NCBI RefSeq assembly: GCF_005153485.1
Contig: NZ_CP039740.1
Location: 2,731,001 to 2,795,000, forward strand
Source: Pseudolabrys sp. FHR47
Lineage (GTDB): Bacteria > Pseudomonadota > Alphaproteobacteria > Rhizobiales > Xanthobacteraceae
Length of the DNA stretch: 64,000 nt
Reading direction: 5' to 3'
Positions 40,119-51,909 of this stretch are shown here, piece after piece. The position numbers and the translations under genes were made by a program. Under the pieces are notes generated by a model. The model was not told the DNA's origin. It saw only the letters and a list, made by a program, of their open reading frames with translations, and searched no databases. Every line of letters begins with the position of its first letter. The stretch's first letter is position 1.

Positions 40119-41042
40119 ATGAGCTTCTTTCCCGGCAAGGACCCCGAGGCCGGCAATGCCTATAGCTGCGACGCCCTCGCCCATGTCGTGGTGCCGCGCA
40201 CGGTCGACCTCGGCGACGGCTTTTCGGTGCGGCGGGCCCTGCCCTCGGCGCGCTCGCGCATGGTCGGGCCATTCATCTTTTTCGACCATTTCGGGCCGGC
40301 GGAATTCCGCGCCGGTACTGGGCTGGACGTCCGCCCACACCCGCATATCGGGCTGTCGACCGTGACTTATTTGTTCGACGGCGAAATCATGCACCGCGAT
40401 AGTCTCGGCACCGCGCTGGCGATCCGTCCCGGCGAGATCAACTGGATGACCGCCGGTCGCGGCATCGTGCATTCGGAGCGCACGGAAGCCGGCTTGCGCG
40501 AAACCGGCAGCCCGATCCACGGCCTGCAGATGTGGGTGGCGCTGCCCAAAGCGCATGAAGAAACCGCGCCGGGCTTTGCGCATCACGACACGGGCGAATT
40601 CCCGGTCGTCGAAGACAACGGCAAGATCGTTCGTGTCGTCACCGGCTCGCTCTACGGCGCGACCTCGCCGGTGCCGGTGCTGCACGAGACCATCTTCGCC
40701 GACGTCACGCTCAAGGCTGGCCAAACGCTGCCGGTCGACGCCGATCACGAAGAGCGCGCAGTCTATGTCGTCAATGGCGTCATTGACATTGCCGGCGACA
40801 GGTTCGAGGCCGGCCGGCTTCTGGTGTTCAAGCCGGGCGACAGCATCACGGTGACGGCGGCGAGCGACGCGCATTTCGTCGTGCTCGGCGGCGCGCCAAT
40901 GGACGGGCCGCGGCACATCTGGTGGAATTTCGTCTCGTCCAGCAAGGACCGCATCGAGCAGGCCAAGGCCGACTGGAAGGCCGGCCACTTCGACAAGGTG
41001 CCCGGCGACGAGATCGAGTTTATTCCGCTGCCTGAGCGATGA
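40119..41042 (+). CDS. Pirin family protein
   Basis: The product has 307 residues from ATG 40119 with ACAGGAG upstream. It is a double cupin: [14 protein letters not shown], the metal-binding histidines in [25 protein letters not shown], and [15 protein letters not shown]. Some bacterial pirins are quercetin 2,3-dioxygenases and others are redox sensors, so the substrate is unknown. Its last 23 bases overlap the 3' end of metA on the other strand. Confidence 0.92.
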
Positions 41043-41985
41043 CGCGCGCGTTCGGCCCTGCCATTTCGACGGTGCCGATCTTGGCAACGTCGAACGGCGT
41101 CGTCTGGTAGATCTGGTTGATCCAGTTGCCAAACAACAGATGGGCGTGGCTGCGCCAGTGGTTGAGCGGCGGAACGTCCGGATTGTCGCCGGGGAAATAG
41201 TTCTTCGGCACTTCCACGGCGACATTGGCGGCGCGGTCGCGGAAATATTCGTCCGCCAGCGAGCCGCTGTCGTATTCGATGTGGTTGAACATGTGCAGCG
41301 CGCGATGCGCCGGATCGTCGATCAGACACACCCCGGCCTCGTCCGACTCCATCAGCACCTTCATGCCGCTCTGCGGCGGGATATCGGCGCGGCGCACCTC
41401 GGTCCAGCGCGACACCGGGATCGCGAAGTCGTCGGAGAAGCCGCGCAGATAGGGCGAAGTCCGGTCGAGCACGCGGTGACGGTAGACGCCGAACATCTTC
41501 TTGCCGAGCGCATATTTCGGCATGCCGTGGAAGCGATGGACCGCGGCCTGCGCGCCCCAGCAGATCGTCATCAGGCCGTGTACATGGGTTTGCGTCCAGT
41601 CGAAGATGCGTTCCAGCTCGCCCCAATACGTCACCTCCTCGAACGGCAGCGTTTCGACCGGCGCGCCGGTGACGATGAAGCCGTCGAACTTCTCCTCCCG
41701 CACGTCTTCCCAGTTGCGATAGAAGGACAGGATGTGATCGGCCGAGGTGTTGCGCGGCACGTGCTCCGACATCTTGACGAGCGTCATCTCGATCTGCAGC
41801 GGCGAGGCGCCGAGCAGGCGCGCGAACTGCGTCTCGGTCTTGGACTTGTTCGGCATCAGGTTGAGCAGACCGATCCGCATCGGGCGAATATCCTGCCGGA
41901 CCGCATCCTTCTCGAGCATGACGCTGACGCCTTCCGCTTCCAGAATGGAGCGCGCGGGCAGATTGTTCGGAATCTTGATCGGCAT
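41020..41985 (-). CDS. metA: Homoserine O-acetyltransferase, MetA type
   Basis: The product has 321 residues, full length. It makes O-acylhomoserine for methionine synthesis. The nucleophile is C142 in [10 protein letters not shown], and [12 protein letters not shown] holds the conserved His and Glu. Residue 111 is Glu (TGAPVET), which in studied MetA enzymes marks acetyl-CoA rather than succinyl-CoA use (Gly in E. coli). The gene is preceded by a structured leader RNA and a hairpin next to its ribosome binding site, so it is probably controlled by S-adenosylmethionine. Confidence 0.95.
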
Positions 41986-42292: not shown

Positions 42293-43590
42293 TTGATTCC
42301 ACGACTGCTGACGATCTGGGACAATGTCCGCACCAGCCTGTGGGCCATGCCGCTGGTCATGGCGATGACCGCCGCATTGCTGGCCTTTGTGATGCGCAGC
42401 ATCAACATCGATATCGGCGACGATCCGGTCTGGTTTCTGTATAGCGGCAGCGCCGAGCAGGCCCCGCAATTCCTTGGCAATCTTGTCGGTGCCATGATCA
42501 CGATGGCGACGCTCGCGATCTCGATCACCATGGTGGTGCTGACGCTGGCGGCGCAACAATTGGGGCCGCGGTTGATCCGCAATTTTATGAGCGACTGGCA
42601 AACCCAGGCATCGCTCGGCCTGTTCATGGCGACCGTGGTCTATCTGCTGCTCGTTTTGCGCAGCACGTATGGTGATGGCTCGGTTGCCAATCTTGCGGTG
42701 ACGGTCGGCACGATACTTGTGCTTGCGAGCCTTGCCAGTCTGCTGGTCTTCGTTCATCACCTCGCCCGCGCCATCATCGCCGACAATGTGATCGATCGCG
42801 TCGGCGCGGCGCTCGACCGTGACATCCGGCGCCTGCTGCCGGAGAAACATGCCGAGCAGCCCCCGTCGCTGTCGTCGGAAAAACCGCGACCGGTATCATT
42901 CCCGTCGCGACCGGCGGCTATGTCCAGGCGGTCGACATCGGGGCTCTCGTGCGCCAGGCCGCCGAAGCCAAGGCGCTGATCGAACTGCAGGTTAGGCCCG
43001 GCCAGCACGCCGTTCCCGGCACCACGCTGGCCCGTGTTTCCCCGCGCATGGCGGCCGAGGATCTCGCCCGCCCGGTGCAGTCGGCCTTTGTCGCCGGCCG
43101 TACCCGTACCGCCGTGCAGGACCTCGAATTCTCCGTGCATCAATTGGTCGAGGTCGCCCTGCGCGCCCTGTCACCGGGGATCAACGATCCATTCACGGCG
43201 ATCGCCGTCATCGACCGGCTGACATTGTCACTGCGGCTGGTAATGGATCGCGGCGCCGCGCAATCGCGTTTCGCCGATGACGAAGGCATCGTCCGTCTGG
43301 TACTTCCGGTGTCCACCTTCGAGGGGCTGACCGATGCGGCCTTCAACCAGATCAGGCAGACGGCCGAAGGACACGCCGCCGTTCTGATCCGTCTGGCCAA
43401 GAATATCGGGGAATTGCTGGAGCTGGCCAACGAGCGACAACGCCCGGCGCTGGAGAAGCATTTGCGTCTTGTGGTCAACGCCGGCGGCCGCAGCATAAAG
43501 GAAGACGACGATCGCAACGACCTCAAGGCAACCATCGACGCTGCGCGATCGAACGGTCGCAACGGCGAGGCATCGGGAGCCGGCGGTTAA
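42293..43590 (+). pseudogene. DUF2254-family membrane protein, frameshifted
   Basis: The first part (from TTG 42293, with AGGAG at 42283-42287) encodes three to four membrane helices and ends in the family region LARAIIADNVIDRVGAALDRDIRRLLP. The rest continues in another frame from about 42860, with VVGKTATGIIP, GGYVQAVDIGALV and then LSPGINDPFTAIAVIDRL, which is the normal continuation of DUF2254. A one-base loss near the C-run at 42861-42864 would explain the change. The whole would be about 430 residues. It is either a recent frameshift or a sequencing error. Its 3' end overlaps the amidohydrolase gene by four bases. Confidence 0.8.
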
Positions 43591-44483
43591 TCGACCTTCG
43601 CCGCGCCGAACAGACGCGCCGCGTTGCCCCAGGCGATGCGCTGCGCCTGCTCGCGCGGTAACTGCTTGAGCCATGAGCGATACTCGCCCATGATGTCGTC
43701 GTAGCTCGCCCAGCGCTCGTTGATCCATGTGTCCGAGCCAAGCAGGAAGCGATCGGAGTAACGTGCGAACAGGTCGCGCCACTCGGGCGTGAGTGCGCTT
43801 CCTCGCGTGATGCCGCCGCGATAGGAAAGCTCGCCCCACAGCATCGGATATTTGTCGAGCAGTTCGGCGACGCGCGCGGGTGGCGTTGAGAATCCAGTGT
43901 GGGCCCAAATGATCTTGGCCTTCGGGTTATGCTCGAACAGGATCAGCAGCGCTTCCTCATCGGCATGGGCATGCAGATAAAGATCGTTGGCGACGGCGAA
44001 ATCAACGATCTTCTTGACGATCGGATTCCAGGCCGACTTGCCGTAGAGATGGAATTCGCCAATGCCGCGATAGTAGCCGCGCTTGAACTCGCTCTCGATC
44101 AGTTCGATGCTGAGCGGATCGCCGAACCAGGTCTGAATGTCGGCGCGCACGCGGTAAGGCCTTATGAACGGCACCACCCACAGGCCCGGCGCCTTCTGAT
44201 CTTTCTGGGCTTGCATCAACTGATGCGTGCCCTTGTTCGGCCGGCTGGTGGCGAGGATGCCCTTGACGTTGTTGCGGTCGAAGACCTCGATCACCTTGTC
44301 GAGCGAGAAGAACGGATTAGGCTCTTGGTTGTAGTGCATGTGGGCGTCGAAGATCGGCATCGCCGCCGCGTCTTGCGCGCCGCCTTGCACAACGCCTTGC
44401 GCCTGCGCGCGTCCGGGCCAGCTCATCAGAACCAGCGCGGCGAGCCCCAGAGCCGCCAGAAATATCAGCCGTTCGAAACGCAT
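43587..44483 (-). CDS. Exported amidohydrolase-family protein
   Basis: The product has 298 residues from ATG 44483, after a strong GGAGAGGAGG site. A signal peptide ends near AQAQ (about 30). The TIM-barrel motifs are IFDAHMHYN (HxH metal site), YLHAHADEEAL, IIWAHTGFS and LLGSDTWIN (final Asp). It belongs to the amidohydrolase_2 type, which includes decarboxylases and lactonases. Export is unusual for that group. The substrate is unknown. Confidence 0.85.
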   Translation of the reverse strand: MRFERLIFLAALGLAALVLMSWPGRAQAQGVVQGGAQDAAAMPIFDAHMHYNQEPNPFFSLDKVIEVFDRNNVKGILATSRPNKGTHQLMQAQKDQKAPGLWVVPFIRPYRVRADIQTWFGDPLSIELIESEFKRGYYRGIGEFHLYGKSAWNPIVKKIVDFAVANDLYLHAHADEEALLILFEHNPKAKIIWAHTGFSTPPARVAELLDKYPMLWGELSYRGGITRGSALTPEWRDLFARYSDRFLLGSDTWINERWASYDDIMGEYRSWLKQLPREQAQRIAWGNAARLFGAAKVD

Positions 44484-44562
44484 GGACCTCCTCTCCACGG
44501 GGCGATCCTAGCGCGGGGCGTGCCGCCTCGCGATCACATCTTCGATAGATCAATTGTGGCGT

Positions 44563-46587
44563 TCAACCGGGCATCTTGGGGTGTGCGGCCGGAATGGCGG
44601 CATGCTGCGGCACGTCGCCGAAGGCGCGGCCCCACAGGCGGTCGATGATGCGGCCGAACTTCAGCGCCTCGATGTCCTGAGAATAGCCGCCCGTATAAAG
44701 CTTCACGATCAGCTGATCGCGGATGTCGGGCGCAAGGGGCTGATGCACGAGTATCAGTTCACGACCGTTGTCCCGCCGATCCCGCATCTCAATCTTCGCC
44801 GCAAAGGGCGCCACATCGGAAACCGTCAAGGTCGCCAGCTGCCCGACCGAGGAGGATAGATCCGCCGTCGTCTGCGCTGTCGATTCATCCATCGCGATGG
44901 CAACAAGGCGAACAGGGATCGCCCGGTCACCGAGGACGAGTTGCGCCTGTTCGTCGGCGGCGAACCGTTGGTGCTCGCTCCGCGGCGCCTCGAAGCACAT
45001 CAGCGCCGCCACCAGCAGGATGAGAATACTCAAGGCCGCCCAGTACTTCGCGATGCTCGAAAACTCAAAATTCTTGGCTGGCGCCCATTCCGGCACAACG
45101 TTCAAAAAAAGGCCCGCCGCCGTCACAATCAGGATCGTCATGATGCAGGAGAAGGTGTACGTGTCGAAACGCGCCTGCCCCTCGACCCCTTTCGGCGTAA
45201 CGCGAAACGGCACCCCGAATGGCCTGATCAAACTGCTGATGACGACTGGAAGCAGCCGGAACGTAGCAAAGACACCGACAGCGGTCGATATGACCGGCAA
45301 GTACCTGTTCGGTGCGAGCCAACGGATGAACAGAAAATACGCCACTAGCACGGGAACCTGATAGTAGAGGATATCGTCCACGCCCGTGAAATAGAGCGGC
45401 GATAATCCGGTCCACAAGAACACGGCCGGAACGATGATGCCGACAAAGCGGACGAAATATTGCAGCAGCCAACTCACGGGCAGGAACATGATGCGCTGGA
45501 ACAGCGTCAACCCGGGACCGCGGATCGGCCCGCTCTTGACATAAAGCGACTGGATGGCGCCACGGCACCAGCGGCTACGCTGGATGAAGAATCCCTCAAG
45601 GTCTTCCGCCGCAAGGCCCATTGACAACCGTTCATTCAGGTATCGCGTGATGTAGCCCTTGTTGAGGCACGCGAGGGTAGTCAGCAAGTCCTCAGTGATC
45701 GACTCGGTAGGTATGCCGCCCGCAGCCTCGATCGCCTCGCGCCGCAGGACCGCGCATGAGCCGCAACAGAAGCTCACATTCCAGGCGTCACGGCTTGCCG
45801 CCATTTCGTCGAAAAACAGGCGCTGCTCGTCGGGCCAGTATTCCTCCAGCGACAGGTTGGACTGGATCGGGTCCTTGTTGAAGAAGTGCTGCGGCGTTTG
45901 CACGATCCCGATCCGCGGATCAGCAAAGAACCCAAGAGTGCGACGCAGGAAGATACGGAAGGGGACAAAATCGGCATCGAATACGGCGACGAATTCGCCC
46001 CTGCTGAGGCTGAGTCCATGGTTGAGGTTTCCGGCTTTGGCGTCGGCATTGTCGGGCCGCGTCACATGGATGACGCCCTCCTCTTCGCAAAATTTGCGCA
46101 ACCACTCCCGCCGCCCATCGTCAAGCACATAGATGTTGAGCTTCTCTTTCGGGTAGTCCAGCGCGCACGCACCGACAATGGTGCGTTCGAGGACGCTCAG
46201 AGGCTCATTATAGGTTGGGATAAAGATATCGACCGTCGGCAGCCAATCCCGGCCACGGGAGAAGAGATTTGACTCCAGCCGGTCGGCCTCCGTACTCCGG
46301 TCGACATAGCGACTCATCGTCACCATGAAAAATGCGGCTTCGATGAACGCGAAGCACTCAATCAGAAAGATGAAGTATATCCACATGGAGGCCGCGCTGC
46401 CGTCGAACGGTTGCTGTAAAACCGTCGCGGTAAAACGCCAGATCATGTAACGCAGGGCGAGAGCCAACACAGCCGTACAGGCAATGGTGCGCGCCCAGGT
46501 CCGTTGGCGGGGCCAATTCAGAACGCCGACCAGATAGAAGGCGAGAACCAGGAAAGCCGGCCCCAGGGCTAGGAGATGCTGAACCAT
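44563..46587 (-). CDS. Family 2 glycosyltransferase, BgsA/cellulose-synthase-like
   Basis: The product has 674 residues. Three helices (about 5-25, 32-50, 65-90) precede the GT domain with VLDDGRREW, FDADFVPF, ITEDLLT and QRSRWCRGA, the D,D,D,QxxRW set of processive beta-glucan synthases. Five further helices follow. The last about 130 residues are soluble and lack a clear PilZ RxxxR..DxSxxG motif. Size, the diverged tail and the upstream HlyD-like partner match BgsA, the c-di-GMP-activated mixed-linkage beta-glucan synthase of Sinorhizobium. It overlaps the partner by 19 bases. Confidence 0.85.
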   Translation of the reverse strand: MVQHLLALGPAFLVLAFYLVGVLNWPRQRTWARTIACTAVLALALRYMIWRFTATVLQQPFDGSAASMWIYFIFLIECFAFIEAAFFMVTMSRYVDRSTEADRLESNLFSRGRDWLPTVDIFIPTYNEPLSVLERTIVGACALDYPKEKLNIYVLDDGRREWLRKFCEEEGVIHVTRPDNADAKAGNLNHGLSLSRGEFVAVFDADFVPFRIFLRRTLGFFADPRIGIVQTPQHFFNKDPIQSNLSLEEYWPDEQRLFFDEMAASRDAWNVSFCCGSCAVLRREAIEAAGGIPTESITEDLLTTLACLNKGYITRYLNERLSMGLAAEDLEGFFIQRSRWCRGAIQSLYVKSGPIRGPGLTLFQRIMFLPVSWLLQYFVRFVGIIVPAVFLWTGLSPLYFTGVDDILYYQVPVLVAYFLFIRWLAPNRYLPVISTAVGVFATFRLLPVVISSLIRPFGVPFRVTPKGVEGQARFDTYTFSCIMTILIVTAAGLFLNVVPEWAPAKNFEFSSIAKYWAALSILILLVAALMCFEAPRSEHQRFAADEQAQLVLGDRAIPVRLVAIAMDESTAQTTADLSSSVGQLATLTVSDVAPFAAKIEMRDRRDNGRELILVHQPLAPDIRDQLIVKLYTGGYSQDIEALKFGRIIDRLWGRAFGDVPQHAAIPAAHPKMPG

Positions 46588-47687
46588 AGGCTCCGCAACC
46601 AGCGCAAGAGGGGGACGCTTCGCCTCCGGAATCGCACATGAACCGTGCGGCCGACCTGGCAGAAATTCCGATAATCGGTGTTGAGGTCGGACGGCACCAA
46701 TTCGATACGAATTTTTGCGTATTTCCCCTCGGTCCGCGGAAGAGAGGCTGCGAGTATCCTGTCTTCGAAATCCGCGCGACTGCCCCTGACGAAGGCCACA
46801 CGGCCGGGAATGGAATCGCTGCGCCCGAGCAAGCGAACCTCGGCGTCCCGCCCCGGATAAATGTCGTCGTAATCAACCTCGTGGACCAAAATCTCCACGA
46901 ACAGGTCGCGGCAATCGAGGATGTTGACGAGTTCTTGTCCGACGGTCACGTTCGATCCGGTGGCGACGAAATTACGCCAGACCACGCCGGTCAGCTCGCT
47001 CAGCACCGATGCAAATCTGAGCCTCTCGGTACGGGCTTCCTCGTCCGCAATCTGTTGCTGAAACTTGACGATCCGTGCCTCCTGTTCGACGCGCATGGCC
47101 AAAAGGCTTTTGAGCGCCAGATCGATTTCGTCGACGCGCTGCAACGAATACGGCACGTCGTTACGCCCTTCTTCGATATACACATCGTTCTCGATTGCCG
47201 CACGTTTGCGCCGCAGTCGATCCAGTTCGTTCCTCGCACCCTCCAGTTCATGTTTGGCGACATCCTCGCCGGCAACGGATTTTTCCAGCTCCATCGCGGA
47301 CAGATGCCCGGAGGATCGCAGAGACTGCTTGCGTTCGAGATCGCTCTTGCGTTCCGTCCCGCGCGCTTCGCTGGAGCCGATACGCTCCTCCTGGCTGGCA
47401 ATTTCCCGATCCGTATTCTCCAGCATCGCCTTACGATAGACGGCGAGACGCCGCAGCATGTCATCGCGCAGCGACTGCAGTCCGGTTTGGCGCAACAGCG
47501 ATGCCTTCAGTGCCGCCTGCGTTGCGCGCAACTCTGCCTGATGTTCGCTCAGCATAGAACGGTTGACGCGCTCATTCTGTATGATCAGCAATTGCTCACC
47601 CTCGGATACGGTTGTGCCGGCTTTGGGCGGACTATTGACGACGGCCCCTTCGATCGGCGCGGCGACGACCACAAAGCGGGCGTTCAC
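46569..47687 (-). CDS. HlyD-like membrane fusion protein, BgsB-like (5' end damaged)
   Basis: The product has 372 residues if GTG 47687 is used, but this lacks the expected membrane anchor. The visible part starts in a biotinyl-lipoyl-like half (APIEGAVVNSPPKAGTTVSEGEQL) and continues through long coiled coils (about 45-190). The second lipoyl half and a beta-barrel end follow (LVNILDCRDLFVEILVHEVDYDDIYPGRDAEV). In bgsBA loci the HlyD-like BgsB is needed with BgsA for glucan export. Upstream the frame continues through an anchor helix to an ATG at 47798 but with a stop at codon 3. Confidence 0.7.
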   Translation of the reverse strand: MNARFVVVAAPIEGAVVNSPPKAGTTVSEGEQLLIIQNERVNRSMLSEHQAELRATQAALKASLLRQTGLQSLRDDMLRRLAVYRKAMLENTDREIASQEERIGSSEARGTERKSDLERKQSLRSSGHLSAMELEKSVAGEDVAKHELEGARNELDRLRRKRAAIENDVYIEEGRNDVPYSLQRVDEIDLALKSLLAMRVEQEARIVKFQQQIADEEARTERLRFASVLSELTGVVWRNFVATGSNVTVGQELVNILDCRDLFVEILVHEVDYDDIYPGRDAEVRLLGRSDSIPGRVAFVRGSRADFEDRILAASLPRTEGKYAKIRIELVPSDLNTDYRNFCQVGRTVHVRFRRRSVPLLRWLRSLWFSIS

Positions 47688-47798
47688 CGTCCCATCCAGA
47701 CTCGTGTATCCCGTAAGGCCCGGCAGAATGGCTATCAGGCCAAGGACAAGCAGGGCCAGTCCGACACCGATGCGTACGCTGCGGCGATTTCAGAACAT
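47688..47798 (-). other. Probable original 5' end of the BgsB-like gene, with in-frame stop
   Basis: ATG 47798 is followed by TTC and then TGA (47792-47790). After the stop the frame reads NRRSVRIGVGLALLVLGL and on through ILPGLTGYTSLDGTV into the annotated protein. This is a typical basic start plus anchor helix. No ATG, GTG or TTG lies between the stop and GTG 47687. Confidence 0.7.
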
Positions 47799-48046
47799 CC
47801 GTGCATATCCAAAAGTGCGATGCCGAATATTCTGTAAAATACCGCAAGAGCGGGTGTTGCCCTATGTCAAATTAAAAACTTCAAATCAGAATGATCAGGC
47901 GCAGCGACGGCATGACGCCTGCCTTTTCATGGTGCGGCGTATGATATCAATATAATTGTACTACCGACGAAGCCAGCATCAGTTTCGGCGATACCACCTG
48001 CGACACTGGCCTTCAATTGAAGAGGCGTCGCGTGCCGCCGCTGGGT
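47799..48046. other. AT-rich intergenic region upstream of the BgsB-like gene
   Basis: No gene is seen here. The stretch is clearly more AT-rich than its surroundings (for example 47850-47895 and 47940-47960) and probably holds the promoter of the bgsBA-like pair. Confidence 0.4.
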
Positions 48047-48114
48047 TTATTTCTTCGGCAGATCGATCCTGATGCTCAGTTCCTTGAGCTGCTTCGGCGT
48101 CACTTCGGCTGGCG
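48047..48114 (-). pseudogene. Duplicate of the aspS 3' end (fragment)
   Basis: These 68 bases match 50107-50174 at 64 positions. Translated on the minus strand they give [21 protein letters not shown] and a stop, identical to the AspRS C-terminus. All four differences are silent or change one stop codon to another (TAA versus TAG). The match ends abruptly at 48115. Confidence 0.9.
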
Positions 48115-48263
48115 AGCGCGCGGCTTTGCTCTATCGAGCCACACCATCACAGGAACGCGCTCCGCGATGCTAGCGATAGACAGTGAATTAACTCAAGAAC
48201 AGCCACAATCCTGCGGCCGGGCCAGTCACCTTCCCGACCCCCCGATCGTTTCACCCATTTTCG

Positions 48264-48668
48264 TCAGCTGGCGGTCGACCCGGCGTGATCCGACAACAGT
48301 TTTCGCGCAATCGCCATGGCCTCGTCGTGTGACGAGGCGAGCATCATTGGGTAACCCCAGAATTTCGCGAAGGTGATGCCGAACGCCTTGAACGCGAGGC
48401 GCTTGGCGGCGCTCGGCTCGACGATGATCATCGCCAGCACGAGCTTGCGCATTTCGGCCTTATGTTTCTTCATCCACAGCGAGGTGCGCTTCTTTTCTTC
48501 CTGGCTGTGCTCATGGTCCTCGCTCGGGGCGGAATCCGTCAGCACCACGAACGGCTCGCCGCGCTTCAGATTCTCTTCAAACGATGCGAAGTCCTCATCG
48601 TGGTCATGATCGGGTGCGTCTGCATAATCCAACCAGACGAAGGGGAAATTTGAATTGTCCATTGGCAT
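48264..48668 (-). CDS. Hypothetical protein with charged His/Asp/Glu-rich N-terminus
   Basis: The product has 134 residues from ATG 48668, seven bases after AAGGA. It begins MPMDNSNFPFVWLDYADAPD, followed by a His/Asp cluster (HDHDEDF) and GEPFVVLTD. The C-terminal half is helical (RTSLWMKKHKAEMRKLVLAM, then AFGITFAKFWGYPMMLAS). The RGEPFVVLTD..W...K part recalls small Rhizobiales proteins of unknown role. It lies 11 bp behind the membrane protein gene and forms an operon with it. Confidence 0.65.
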   Translation of the reverse strand: MPMDNSNFPFVWLDYADAPDHDHDEDFASFEENLKRGEPFVVLTDSAPSEDHEHSQEEKKRTSLWMKKHKAEMRKLVLAMIIVEPSAAKRLAFKAFGITFAKFWGYPMMLASSHDEAMAIARKLLSDHAGSTAS

Positions 48669-48679
48669 GGATTGGTCCT

Positions 48680-49126
48680 TTATCGGGGATTGATGCTGAT
48701 CATGCGGCCCGAAGGCGCCGCCCCGACATCGCAATTGCGAAGATGCCGCCACGACATCGCGATCGCGAATGAGCCGGGAAGCGTGATGGCTAACAACGCC
48801 AAGAAAACGAGATGGCCGCCATCGCGGATGCCGTCGAACACGCCCGAGAGCGTGGTCAATGCCACGAGAACCCCGCCGAAGATGAGCGACACCCAATTGG
48901 CGGTCGGCCGATCGATCAGCGCCAGCAGAGCCGGGATCACCCAGGCCCCATAGAAGGCCGAGATCACCCAAACTTGGGCGGCGGTGAAATTGAGCGCAGG
49001 CGTCGCCCCGTGCGATCCGGCGGAGGCATTCAAATAGGAGAAGATCTGGATCGTGGCGTAGATTATCGCGCCAACCGCCGTGATAAGCCAAACGAGCGAA
49101 AGGCGGCTTTGTCTCTTTTCGTCCAT
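48680..49126 (-). CDS. Hypothetical four-helix membrane protein
   Basis: The product has 148 residues with hydrophobic segments near 9-31, 49-70, 77-95 and 103-125. It starts MDEKRQSRLSLVWLITAVGAIIYA. It has no recognised motif. It is divergent from the AraC-type regulator gene (127 bp between start codons), which probably controls it and the next gene. Confidence 0.6.
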   Translation of the reverse strand: MDEKRQSRLSLVWLITAVGAIIYATIQIFSYLNASAGSHGATPALNFTAAQVWVISAFYGAWVIPALLALIDRPTANWVSLIFGGVLVALTTLSGVFDGIRDGGHLVFLALLAITLPGSFAIAMSWRHLRNCDVGAAPSGRMISINPR

Positions 49127-49253
49127 CTTGATCCATCCAAAATCTGGTCAGGGGCCGGCGACCGATGTCGGCCGGAGCCTTGCCGCCGACGATAGGCAGA
49201 CCCGCTAATGGCGTCATTGCGCAACTCGGACATTGTATGTTTTGATCCGGCCA

Positions 49254-50078
49254 ATGCGGCAGCGCAGCGGGGCCCCCGTGTATTTGGATGTCCGTGGAGA
49301 TTGGTCTTCGTATGTCGATGAGGTCCCTCGCGATCTCGTCGCGGCCAACGGGGTCGGCAGCCTGGAGAGCATGGAGCAATCAAAGCGTCACCATCACGAA
49401 AAGGCGCAGTTGCTCTATTCCACCCGGGGCATCATCAACATCGAGGTCGATGACGGCGTCTGGATCGTACCGCCGCAATGCGCCGTCTGGATTCCCGGCA
49501 GTTTGCCGCATGCCGCATTCGGCTCGGGCGAAGTCGAGTGCATCTGCCTTTGCGTTGCGCCGGATGCGGCTGCAAATCTGCCGGTCAGATGTTGCACGAT
49601 CGCGGTCTCGGGTTTGCTGCGGCATCTGCTGATCAGGGCCAGCGAGATTCCGGAGCGCTATGAGGTCGACGGCCCGGACGGTCGCATCGTTTCTGTACTT
49701 CTCGATGAGCTGGCCAAGGCCCCAGTCGAGGAACTCCGCCTCCCGATCCCCTCCGATCCGCGCCTGAAGCATCTCGCCGAGCTTTTGGTCACATCCCCGG
49801 CGGATCACGCGACCGTTGCGGAGTGGGCCCGCCGGGTCGCGCTCAGCGAGCGCAGTCTCAGCCGCATGTTGATGGAAGAGATCGGCATGAGTTTCGGCCG
49901 CTGGCGTCGCCAGTTACACGTCATCCTCGCCCTTCGGCGGCTGAGCGCCGGCCAGACGGTCCAGACCGTCGCGCTCGACCTAGGCTACGAGAGCGCCAGC
50001 AGTTTCGTGACCATGTTTCGCAAGATGATCGGCAAGCCGCCGAGCCGCTATCTCCAGGAGCAGCGGAAAGCCGTCTGA
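49254..50078 (+). CDS. AraC-family transcriptional regulator with cupin sensor
   Basis: The product has 274 residues from ATG 49254; TTG 49233 would add seven. The N-terminal cupin (KRHHHEKAQLLYSTRGIINIEVDDG, IWIPGSLPH-like VWIPGSLPHAAF) senses a ligand. The C-terminal pair of helix-turn-helix motifs is VAEWARRVALSERSLSRMLMEE and VQTVALDLGYESASSFVTMFRKMIGKPPSRY. This layout is typical of regulators of neighbouring export or resistance genes. It is divergent from the membrane protein operon. Confidence 0.88.
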   Translation: MRQRSGAPVYLDVRGDWSSYVDEVPRDLVAANGVGSLESMEQSKRHHHEKAQLLYSTRGIINIEVDDGVWIVPPQCAVWIPGSLPHAAFGSGEVECICLCVAPDAAANLPVRCCTIAVSGLLRHLLIRASEIPERYEVDGPDGRIVSVLLDELAKAPVEELRLPIPSDPRLKHLAELLVTSPADHATVAEWARRVALSERSLSRMLMEEIGMSFGRWRRQLHVILALRRLSAGQTVQTVALDLGYESASSFVTMFRKMIGKPPSRYLQEQRKAV

Positions 50079-50106
50079 GCCGCGGTGAACAGCGCCGGAA
50101 ACCACA

Positions 50107-50174
50107 CTACTTCTTCGGCAGATCGATCCTGATGCTCAGTTCCTTGAGCTGCTTTGGCGTCACTTCGGCCGGCG
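50107..50174. repeat. Direct repeat: intact aspS 3' end matching 48047-48114
   Basis: This is the functional copy of a 68-bp direct repeat (64 identical). The two copies lie 2060 bp apart and bracket the AraC/membrane protein/hypothetical gene set. Confidence 0.9.
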
Positions 50175-51909
50175 CGCCCATCATCAAATCTTCGGCCTTC
50201 TGGTTCATCGGGAACAGCACGACTTCGCGCAGGTTCTCTTCGCCGGCGAGCAGCATGACAATGCGGTCGATGCCGGGCGCGATGCCGCCATGCGGCGGAG
50301 CGCCGAGGCGGAAGGCGCTCAGCATGCCGCCGAACTTGGCCTCCAGCACTTCCTTCGGATAGCCGGCAATCGCAAAGGCCTTCTCCATCACCTCGGGGCG
50401 ATGGTTTCGGATGGCGCCCGACGACAATTCGGTGCCGTTGCAGACGATGTCGTACTGATAGGCCTTGATGCCGAGGATTTTGTCGGCGTCGTTCGCATCG
50501 AGCGCGAGGAATTCCTCGACGCCCATCTGCGGCATCGAAAACGGGTTGTGCGAGAAGTCGATCTTCTTGTCTTCCTCGTTCCATTCGAACATGGGGAAGT
50601 CGACAATCCAGCAGAATTCGAAACGGTCCTGCGCGATCAGGTTGAGTTCCTGCCCGACCTTGGTGCGCGCCGCTCCAGCGAACTTGTAGAAGTTCTTCGG
50701 CAGGCCGGCGACGAAGAAACACGCATCGCCAACCTTGAGGCCGAGCTGGTCGGCAATCTGTTTGGTGCGCTCGGGACCGATGTTCTTGGCCAAGGGACCT
50801 GCGCCGCCCTCCTCGCCTTCGCGCCAGAAGATATAGCCGAGGCCCGGCTGGCCTTCGCCCTGCGCCCAGGAATTCATGCGATCGGCGAAAGCGCGGTTGC
50901 CGCCACCGGGCGCCGGAATGGCCCAGACCTGCGCCTTGGAGTCGCCGGCGAGAATGCTGGCGAAAATCTTGAAGCCCGAGCCGCGGAAGGCTTCGCTGAC
51001 ATCCTGCATCACGATCGGGTTGCGCAGGTCCGGTTTGTCCGAGCCGTATTTGGTGATCGCCTCGGCATAGGGGATCATCGGAAACTTCGGCGTCACCGAC
51101 TTGCCGTCCGCGAACTCCTCGAACACGCCGCGCATCACCGGCTCGACGGCATTGAACACATCGTCCTGCGTGACGAAGCTCATCTCGAGATCGAGCTGAT
51201 AGAACTCGCCTGGCGAACGGTCGGCGCGGGCATCCTCGTCGCGGAAGCACGGCGCGATCTGGAAATAGCGGTCGAAGCCCGCCACCATGATGAGCTGCTT
51301 GAACTGCTGCGGCGCCTGCGGCAGCGCGTAGAACTTTCCGGGATGAATGCGCGAGGGCACGAGATAATCGCGCGCGCCTTCCGGCGACGATGCGGTCAGG
51401 ATCGGCGTCTGGAATTCGAAGAAGCCGGAATCCTTCATGCGCTTGCGGATCGAGTCGATGACGCGGCCGCGCAGCATGATGTTGTTGTGCAGCTTCTCAC
51501 GGCGCAAATCGAGGAAGCGGTACTTGAGGCGGATGTCTTCCGGATAATCGGCATCGCCGAACACCGGCATCGGCAGTTCGGCGGCGGCGCCGAGCACCTC
51601 GATCTCGGAGACATAGACCTCGACCTGGCCGGTCGGGAGGTCGGGGTTTTCGGTGCCTTCGGGGCGTTGGCGGGCTTTGCCGTCGACGCGGATCACCCAC
51701 TCCGAGCGCAGGGTCTCGGCGAGCTTGAACGCCTTGGAATCCGGGTCGCACACCACCTGCGTGATGCCGTAGTGGTCGCGCAGGTCGATGAACAGCACAC
51801 CGCCATGGTCGCGGATGCGGTGGCACCAGCCCGACAGGCGGACTTCCTTGCCGATGTCGCTCTCGCGCAGCGCGCCGCAGGTGTGGGAACGATAGCGATG
51901 CAGTGACAT
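50107..51909 (-). CDS. aspS: Aspartate--tRNA ligase (bacterial type)
   Basis: The product has 600 residues, normal for bacterial AspRS including the GAD insertion. The anticodon-binding OB fold (about 15-105) has [22 protein letters not shown]. Class II motifs are [17 protein letters not shown] (motif 1), [24 protein letters not shown] (motif 2) and [27 protein letters not shown] (motif 3). The last about 22 residues are also found as a separate fragment 2 kb downstream. Confidence 0.97.

Follow-up and report, generated by a model that had tools for sequence, protein, structure and literature searches.

A leftover aspS 3' end, best explained as a further example of gene-end displacement by recombination

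Comparable systems described earlier

In the minimal mobile elements of Neisseria, which are exchanged by natural transformation, a single interval bounded by two conserved genes can hold different genes; the concept is not known to include a duplicated gene end. Among cis-mobilizable elements and islands located at gene 3' ends are integrase-less segments with flanking direct repeats. Tip displacement is described for Rhs genes by Jackson et al. (2009; PMC2935791), who, in the part of the article used here, propose homologous recombination with circular intermediates. Displaced type VI secretion (T6SS) immunity genes are the subject of Kirchberger et al. (2017; PMC5361080), and homology-facilitated illegitimate recombination (HFIR) is proposed in the portion of that article drawn on. 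According to the excerpt used of Touzain et al. (2010; PMC2884548), 10–18% of variable segments in the species studied are flanked by direct repeats.

The locus described here lies in a 64-kb stretch of genomic DNA (the window) from the genome designated G000. The 3' end of aspS, the gene for aspartyl-tRNA synthetase (AspRS), is present twice: as the working end of the gene (P) and as a displaced copy (D), with three genes between them (Table 1). The locus resembles cis-mobilizable elements and islands in being an integrase-less segment with flanking direct repeats at a gene 3' end, but the aspS cases show no fixed core site, and a search with PF00589 found no partner integrase. As in the Rhs arrays, where dissociated old 3' ends remain downstream in series once new DNA bringing another end has been joined to the conserved gene by recombination, old aspS ends would be left downstream; the Rhs tip, however, is variable, whereas the two aspS ends encode nearly identical protein ends and it is only the cargo that differs (PMC2935791, in the part used). 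With the HFIR cases it would share one homologous anchor, one illegitimate join and old sequence moved downstream, but the anchor is a housekeeping tRNA synthetase gene and the aspS case is known from sequence alone (PMC5361080, portion drawn on). The likeness to the segments of Touzain et al. is a small variable segment with flanking direct repeats, although most of their repeats are under 30 bp and the excerpt used does not describe them as displaced gene ends (PMC2884548). The leftover aspS end is best explained as a further example of known gene-end displacement by recombination.

The two aspS ends and the extent of the extra DNA

Table 1. Features of the aspS locus in the window, in order of position
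Feature	Position	Strand	Basis or remark
Amidohydrolase, adjoins aspS in relatives	43587..44498	-	Pfam; loci of relatives
T1, putative decayed remnant of an aspS end, amidohydrolase side	44529..44566	-	20/30 nt, then TGATCGCG
Family-2 glycosyltransferase, cellulose-synthase-like; other cargo	44563..46587	-	Pfam
HlyD-type membrane-fusion protein; other cargo	46569..47687	-	Pfam; genus search
D, displaced aspS 3' end, 21 codons + TAA	48047..48117	-	Repeat comparison
Spacer of 146 bp, g1 stop to D	48118..48263	.	In G029 the g1 stop is ~5 nt from D
g1, 134-aa conserved protein	48264..48668	-	No Pfam, PADLOC or NCBIfam match
g2, 148-aa hydrophobic protein	48680..49126	-	No Pfam, PADLOC or NCBIfam match
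AraC-type regulator, cupin-like N-terminus, start codon uncertain	49233..50078	+	Pfam HTH_18, 1.8e-22
P, working aspS 3' end, proximal repeat copy	50107..50177	-	Repeat comparison
aspS, aspartyl-tRNA synthetase, intact, 600 aa	50107..51909	-	tRNA-synt_2, OB-fold, GAD

The two ends form a direct repeat of 70 nt with 94% identity (48048–48117 and 50108–50177) at a spacing of 2060 bp. It is the sole direct repeat of at least 45 nt at E <= 1e-6 in the window (E 4e-24; self-comparison under the low-complexity filter). When the genome was searched with positions 47700–48262 at E <= 0.001, one further copy was found, which is the aspS end itself. D codes for the last 21 residues of AspRS and a stop. 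In the last 66 nt, P and D differ four times (CCG/CCA, CCA/CCG, AAG/AAA and TAG/TAA), and each difference is silent or stop-to-stop. The silent share of random single changes in this stretch is 23% (36% for transitions), and the probability that four of four differences are silent is 0.003 (0.017 with transitions). This pattern suggests that both ends probably diverged as working gene ends. A sequence-only reading of this DNA had described the repeat around three genes, the 21 residues plus stop encoded by the distal copy, the silent or stop-to-stop nature of all four differences and the lack of an integrase among the three genes. The repeat is real, its coding content and the codon comparison agree with that description, and Pfam finds no integrase among the three genes; the view that both copies evolved as functional ends is favored by the silent differences.

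The extra DNA exceeds the interval between the repeat copies. In the relative G032, the amidohydrolase (window positions 43591–44549) abuts aspS (50107), so that approximately 44550–50106 is extra in G000. Empty sites with the amidohydrolase beside aspS are present in G032, G009, G026 and G011, and the two genes are likewise neighbors in G002, G005, G013 and G030. The extra DNA takes in the glycosyltransferase and HlyD genes (44563–47687). A two-kilobase insert, as proposed from the sequence, thus holds for the interval between the repeats but not for the size of the extra stretch relative to G032. In the same way, the empty site expected in relatives exists for the larger interval (the four genomes named), but none turned up for 48047–50107 alone: no locus was found in which an aspS end is followed directly by the sequence to the left of 48047, and the HlyD gene that lies there is matched in only one of 43 genus genomes at E <= 1e-30, namely G000.

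At the far edge of the extra DNA, T1 has the post-stop sequence common to G009 and G032, preceded by a decayed aspS end, and it overlaps the stop of the glycosyltransferase gene. G032 has a shorter decayed aspS end directly after its own aspS stop. By itself the similarity of T1 to the aspS end is not significant: 20 of 30 nt match, but the reversed strand reaches 19 of 30 and another genome, G007, up to 20 of 30. Its position has a P of 2e-6 for one given place, and it is because of position, not similarity, that T1 is accepted as a remnant. T1 is therefore a credible candidate for a third, decayed aspS end.

The gene set and displaced aspS ends in other genomes

The 134-aa protein is found in two of the 43 genus genomes (completeness is 90% or more and contamination 5% or less in 28 of them). 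These are G000 and G029, each with the complete three-gene set. Within the genus loci that were fetched, the set is beside aspS only in these two, and the HlyD and glycosyltransferase genes are beside aspS only in G000. In G029 two aspS ends surround the set. The working end is followed by ~160 bp that resemble the aspS-amidohydrolase spacer of G009, and then by 32 nt that can be read as the first 11 amidohydrolase codons, fused to the 3' side of the regulator. This joint is uncertain by ~11 nt, as the last 11 of the 32 nt resemble the sequence after the regulator in G000. Between the D copy of G029 and the stop of a DUF2254 gene there are ~10 nt. As read from this arrangement, the set and D replace the body of the amidohydrolase, and the set has no junction with the aspS end. 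At their inner boundary, D of G000 and D of G029 agree within 1–2 nt, but the flanks differ. The two D copies show 10 differences in 66 nt, 8 of them silent; since they differ mostly silently, they probably do not descend from a single non-functional copy, barring a later exchange of the end. The 134-aa gene of G029 (locus L033, 8030–8431, minus strand) has an in-frame TAG near its start, followed by an internal ATG.

A scan of one genome per species, from which G000 may be omitted, gives 69 loci for the 134-aa protein. At 55 of these loci, both the 148-aa protein and a related AraC regulator are encoded no more than 4 kb away. The aspS gene is in the fetched stretch, some of which end early at contig ends, for one of the 69 loci, the G029 contig. 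The set is widespread and has aspS nearby in this one locus, and so it is not a signature of an aspS element. A large receptor-like ORF neighbors the AraC/148-aa/134-aa set in loci L145, L142, L106 and L110. A TonB-dependent receptor is identified by Pfam beside the regulator in L145 and L110, which suggests that the set may be part of a regulated uptake system. There is no TonB-dependent receptor between the repeat copies of the window. In G187 and G276 (loci L067 and L068), inspection by eye shows a guaA-like gene with the set a few kb downstream; guaA is a target of islands.

Three further genera also have displaced aspS ends, around a NACHT gene in G078 and a resident-type gene in G273 and G333. 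The aspS tail was searched in 391 family and 397 order genomes (769 distinct) and matched in 367 of the 391 and 380 of the 397. Both ends are on one contig in five cases, G000, G029, G078, G273 and G333. This number is a lower bound, as G273 was missed by one query and caught by the other. The leftover starts ~70 nt before the stop in G000, ~71 in G029, ~121 in G078, ~92 in G273 and ~83 in G333. All five D copies thus fall in the final ~121 nt of a gene 1800 nt long. G179 was set aside because its ends are on two contigs (6% contamination), G591 because it has two full copies far apart, and G492, G036 and G583 because their matches at contig ends look like contig breaks.

In G078 (locus L070) the aspS ends enclose an 894-aa Mrr/NACHT/pentapeptide protein, encoded 228–2912 nt past the aspS stop. 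This NACHT protein with its Mrr-type N-terminus is defence-like; its PADLOC matches are weak. G121 and G145 have a single aspS end followed by the gene found after D in G078, so that D is the native end in G078 and P the end that arrived with the insert. In G333 (L183; 8% contamination, yet both aspS ends are on a single contig) a decayed leftover is located between two convergent genes for proteins of ~700 aa that are 48% identical and have no Pfam match. The leftover of G273 lies between a related gene and a maeB-like gene (by eye). In both G333 and G273 the long gene between P and D is related to the resident neighbor that follows D in G078. Differences between P and D are silent in 4 of 4 positions in G000, 8 of 10 in G029 and 7 of 8 in G078. 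In G333 the count is just 4 of 10, with an in-frame stop in D, and the D of G273 looks decayed.

Readings of the locus and the aspS-pirin interval

Recombination anchored in aspS, which displaced older gene ends and left a scar rather than a dedicated mobile element, is a fairly likely explanation of the locus; a product of recombination was one of three options offered by the sequence-only reading, and it is the best fit. The donor DNA would come from related lineages and would carry the 3' end of aspS together with the DNA that follows it there. One join would be homologous, inside aspS, and keep a full working gene; the second would form without long homology inside the last ~70–121 nt of the old aspS, whose end would be pushed downstream as a spare copy. 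Alternatively, the whole donor may enter as a circle by a single crossover. For G000, at least two events, or one with an already composite donor, would place P, D and T1 around two cargo blocks, the three genes and the HlyD/glycosyltransferase pair. The route, the order of events and the native end in G000 are presumptive. No donor lineage for the inserted DNA was found.

An old end kept downstream as a functional-type allele is found in G000, G029 and G078. The mostly silent P/D differences in these three of the five cases suggest that the ends were separated in different genomes. Sites that are empty or have a single end are found in G032, G009, G026 and G011 for 44.5–50.1 kb and in G121 and G145 for G078. 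Further points in favor of recombination are the varying boundaries of D, the recurrence in other genera, the variable aspS-pirin interval, the lack of a PF00589 match near aspS and, in G333 and G273, the long gene between P and D. Within aspS itself, 5 of 105 triples have a permutation P < 0.005, compared with ~0.5 by chance (uncorrected for multiple tests), which lends slight support to recombination within the gene. Against the recombination view, the inner D boundary is shared by G000 and G029, which one fixed site would explain directly, and D always lies in the last ~121 nt of aspS, as for an attachment site. D may be short in that longer repeats recombine out and shorter ones escape the search. 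G333 and G273 do not fit the argument from silent divergence.

An element that integrates at the aspS 3' end, as the sequence-only reading had it, would be expected to have flanking direct repeats of which one completes the target gene, and G000 has these. An integrase-driven element is nevertheless not supported: there is no tyrosine integrase nearby, the boundaries vary, and the set of G029 is not joined to aspS. The search for integrases in the five whole genomes used PF00589, which covers tyrosine integrases only. At E <= 1e-5 there is no match on the aspS contigs of G029, G078, G273 and G333, and the nearest match in G000 is ~150 kb from aspS. No integrase was found in the aspS-pirin cargo of the genus among ORFs of at least 100 aa in gaps over 400 bp, some analyzed by Pfam and the rest by eye. 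Longer relatives carrying an integrase, a further expectation of that reading, did not turn up either, at aspS ends in the five genomes with PF00589 or in IMG/VR stretches. Seven IMG/VR contigs have aspS, and no integrase is seen by eye at the aspS end in ~5 kb each of L093–L097 (more for L093 and L096) or in 10 kb of L099; the contig of L098 stops at aspS. An integrase-like ORF is present in L099, but between it and aspS lies a PPK2-like gene (by eye). The titles and abstract openings of the literature on integrases, genomic islands and attB that concerns aspS do not name the gene as an integration site. If a recombinase supplied in trans had inserted an element without its own integrase site-specifically at the 3' end of aspS, D would be an attR-like end, P the replacement end of the element and T1 a trace of a second element. 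In keeping with this reading are the architecture in G000 and G078, the nested ends P, D and T1, the almost equal inner boundary of D in G000 and G029 and the divergence of G000, G032 and G033 from the aspS stop onward (by eye). The reading is unlikely in light of the integrase searches of the contigs and of the IMG/VR stretches, and independent insertions do not share one core boundary: D begins at ~70, 71, 83, 92 and 121 nt, and the agreement of G000 and G029 may not represent independent insertions. Moreover, the set in G029 joins the amidohydrolase start with the aspS-amidohydrolase spacer still after aspS, and 68 of the 69 loci of the 134-aa protein have no aspS nearby.

It is quite improbable that the aspS end was duplicated in tandem, together with neighboring DNA, within a single lineage and that the genes between the copies were replaced later. 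Such a history would suit G333, where the order is aspS end, ~700-aa gene, aspS end and second ~700-aa gene, as well as the 18-nt tandem-like repeat at the aspS stop of G032 and the lack of a clear silent pattern in the D copies of G333 and G273. However, the two gene copies of G333 are just 48% identical, the silent divergence in G000, G029 and G078 argues for separation in different genomes, and the cargo genes are beside aspS only in G000 and G029 or, for HlyD and glycosyltransferase, in G000 alone among the fetched genus loci. Chance similarity or an assembly error, which the apparent duplications of G492, G036 and G583 call to mind but to which nothing at the aspS locus of G000 points, can practically be dismissed: the repeat has an E of 4e-24, the G000 genome is one contig, and a related arrangement is present on a 122-kb contig of another assembly.

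If recombination is the explanation, the displaced ends of housekeeping genes record, as readable scars, how genes can arrive beside essential genes with no integrase involved. The joining point and the minimum number of arrivals can be read from them, and their silent differences are evidence for another lineage as the source of the second end; by searching for 3' ends of core genes that occur in duplicate, this route of arrival could be measured genome-wide. The interest is modest and comes mainly from recurrence at one essential gene, aspS, across several genera. A more general reading, doubtful when its parts are taken together, would make the aspS 3' end a recurrent docking point in this bacterial family, where small cargo is swapped without a resident recombinase. 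Each cargo would bring a spare aspS end, so that the essential gene stays intact and the old end is shunted downstream; the cargo would be the regulator set in G000 and the NACHT/Mrr defence-like gene in G078.

The interval downstream of aspS is variable throughout the genus. A pirin gene is present in the fetched stretch in 31 of the 36 genus loci with an aspS end found. The aspS-pirin gap in these 31 ranges from 14 to 9068 bp, with 11 of 31 at 156 bp or less and G000 the largest. The cargo includes an amidohydrolase, DUF2254, metA, a GMC oxidoreductase, FUSC and a 1007-aa protein, i.e., different cargo is found between the same conserved genes, a likeness to the Neisseria minimal mobile elements. 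The DUF2254 gene of the window (42293–43584, plus strand) adjoins the amidohydrolase. Its relative in G029 aligns in two pieces in different frames, so the gene in the window appears frameshifted. A SAM-I/IV riboswitch (Rfam RF01725; 42029–42135, minus strand) is located just upstream of metA, which encodes homoserine O-succinyltransferase (41020–41985, minus strand).
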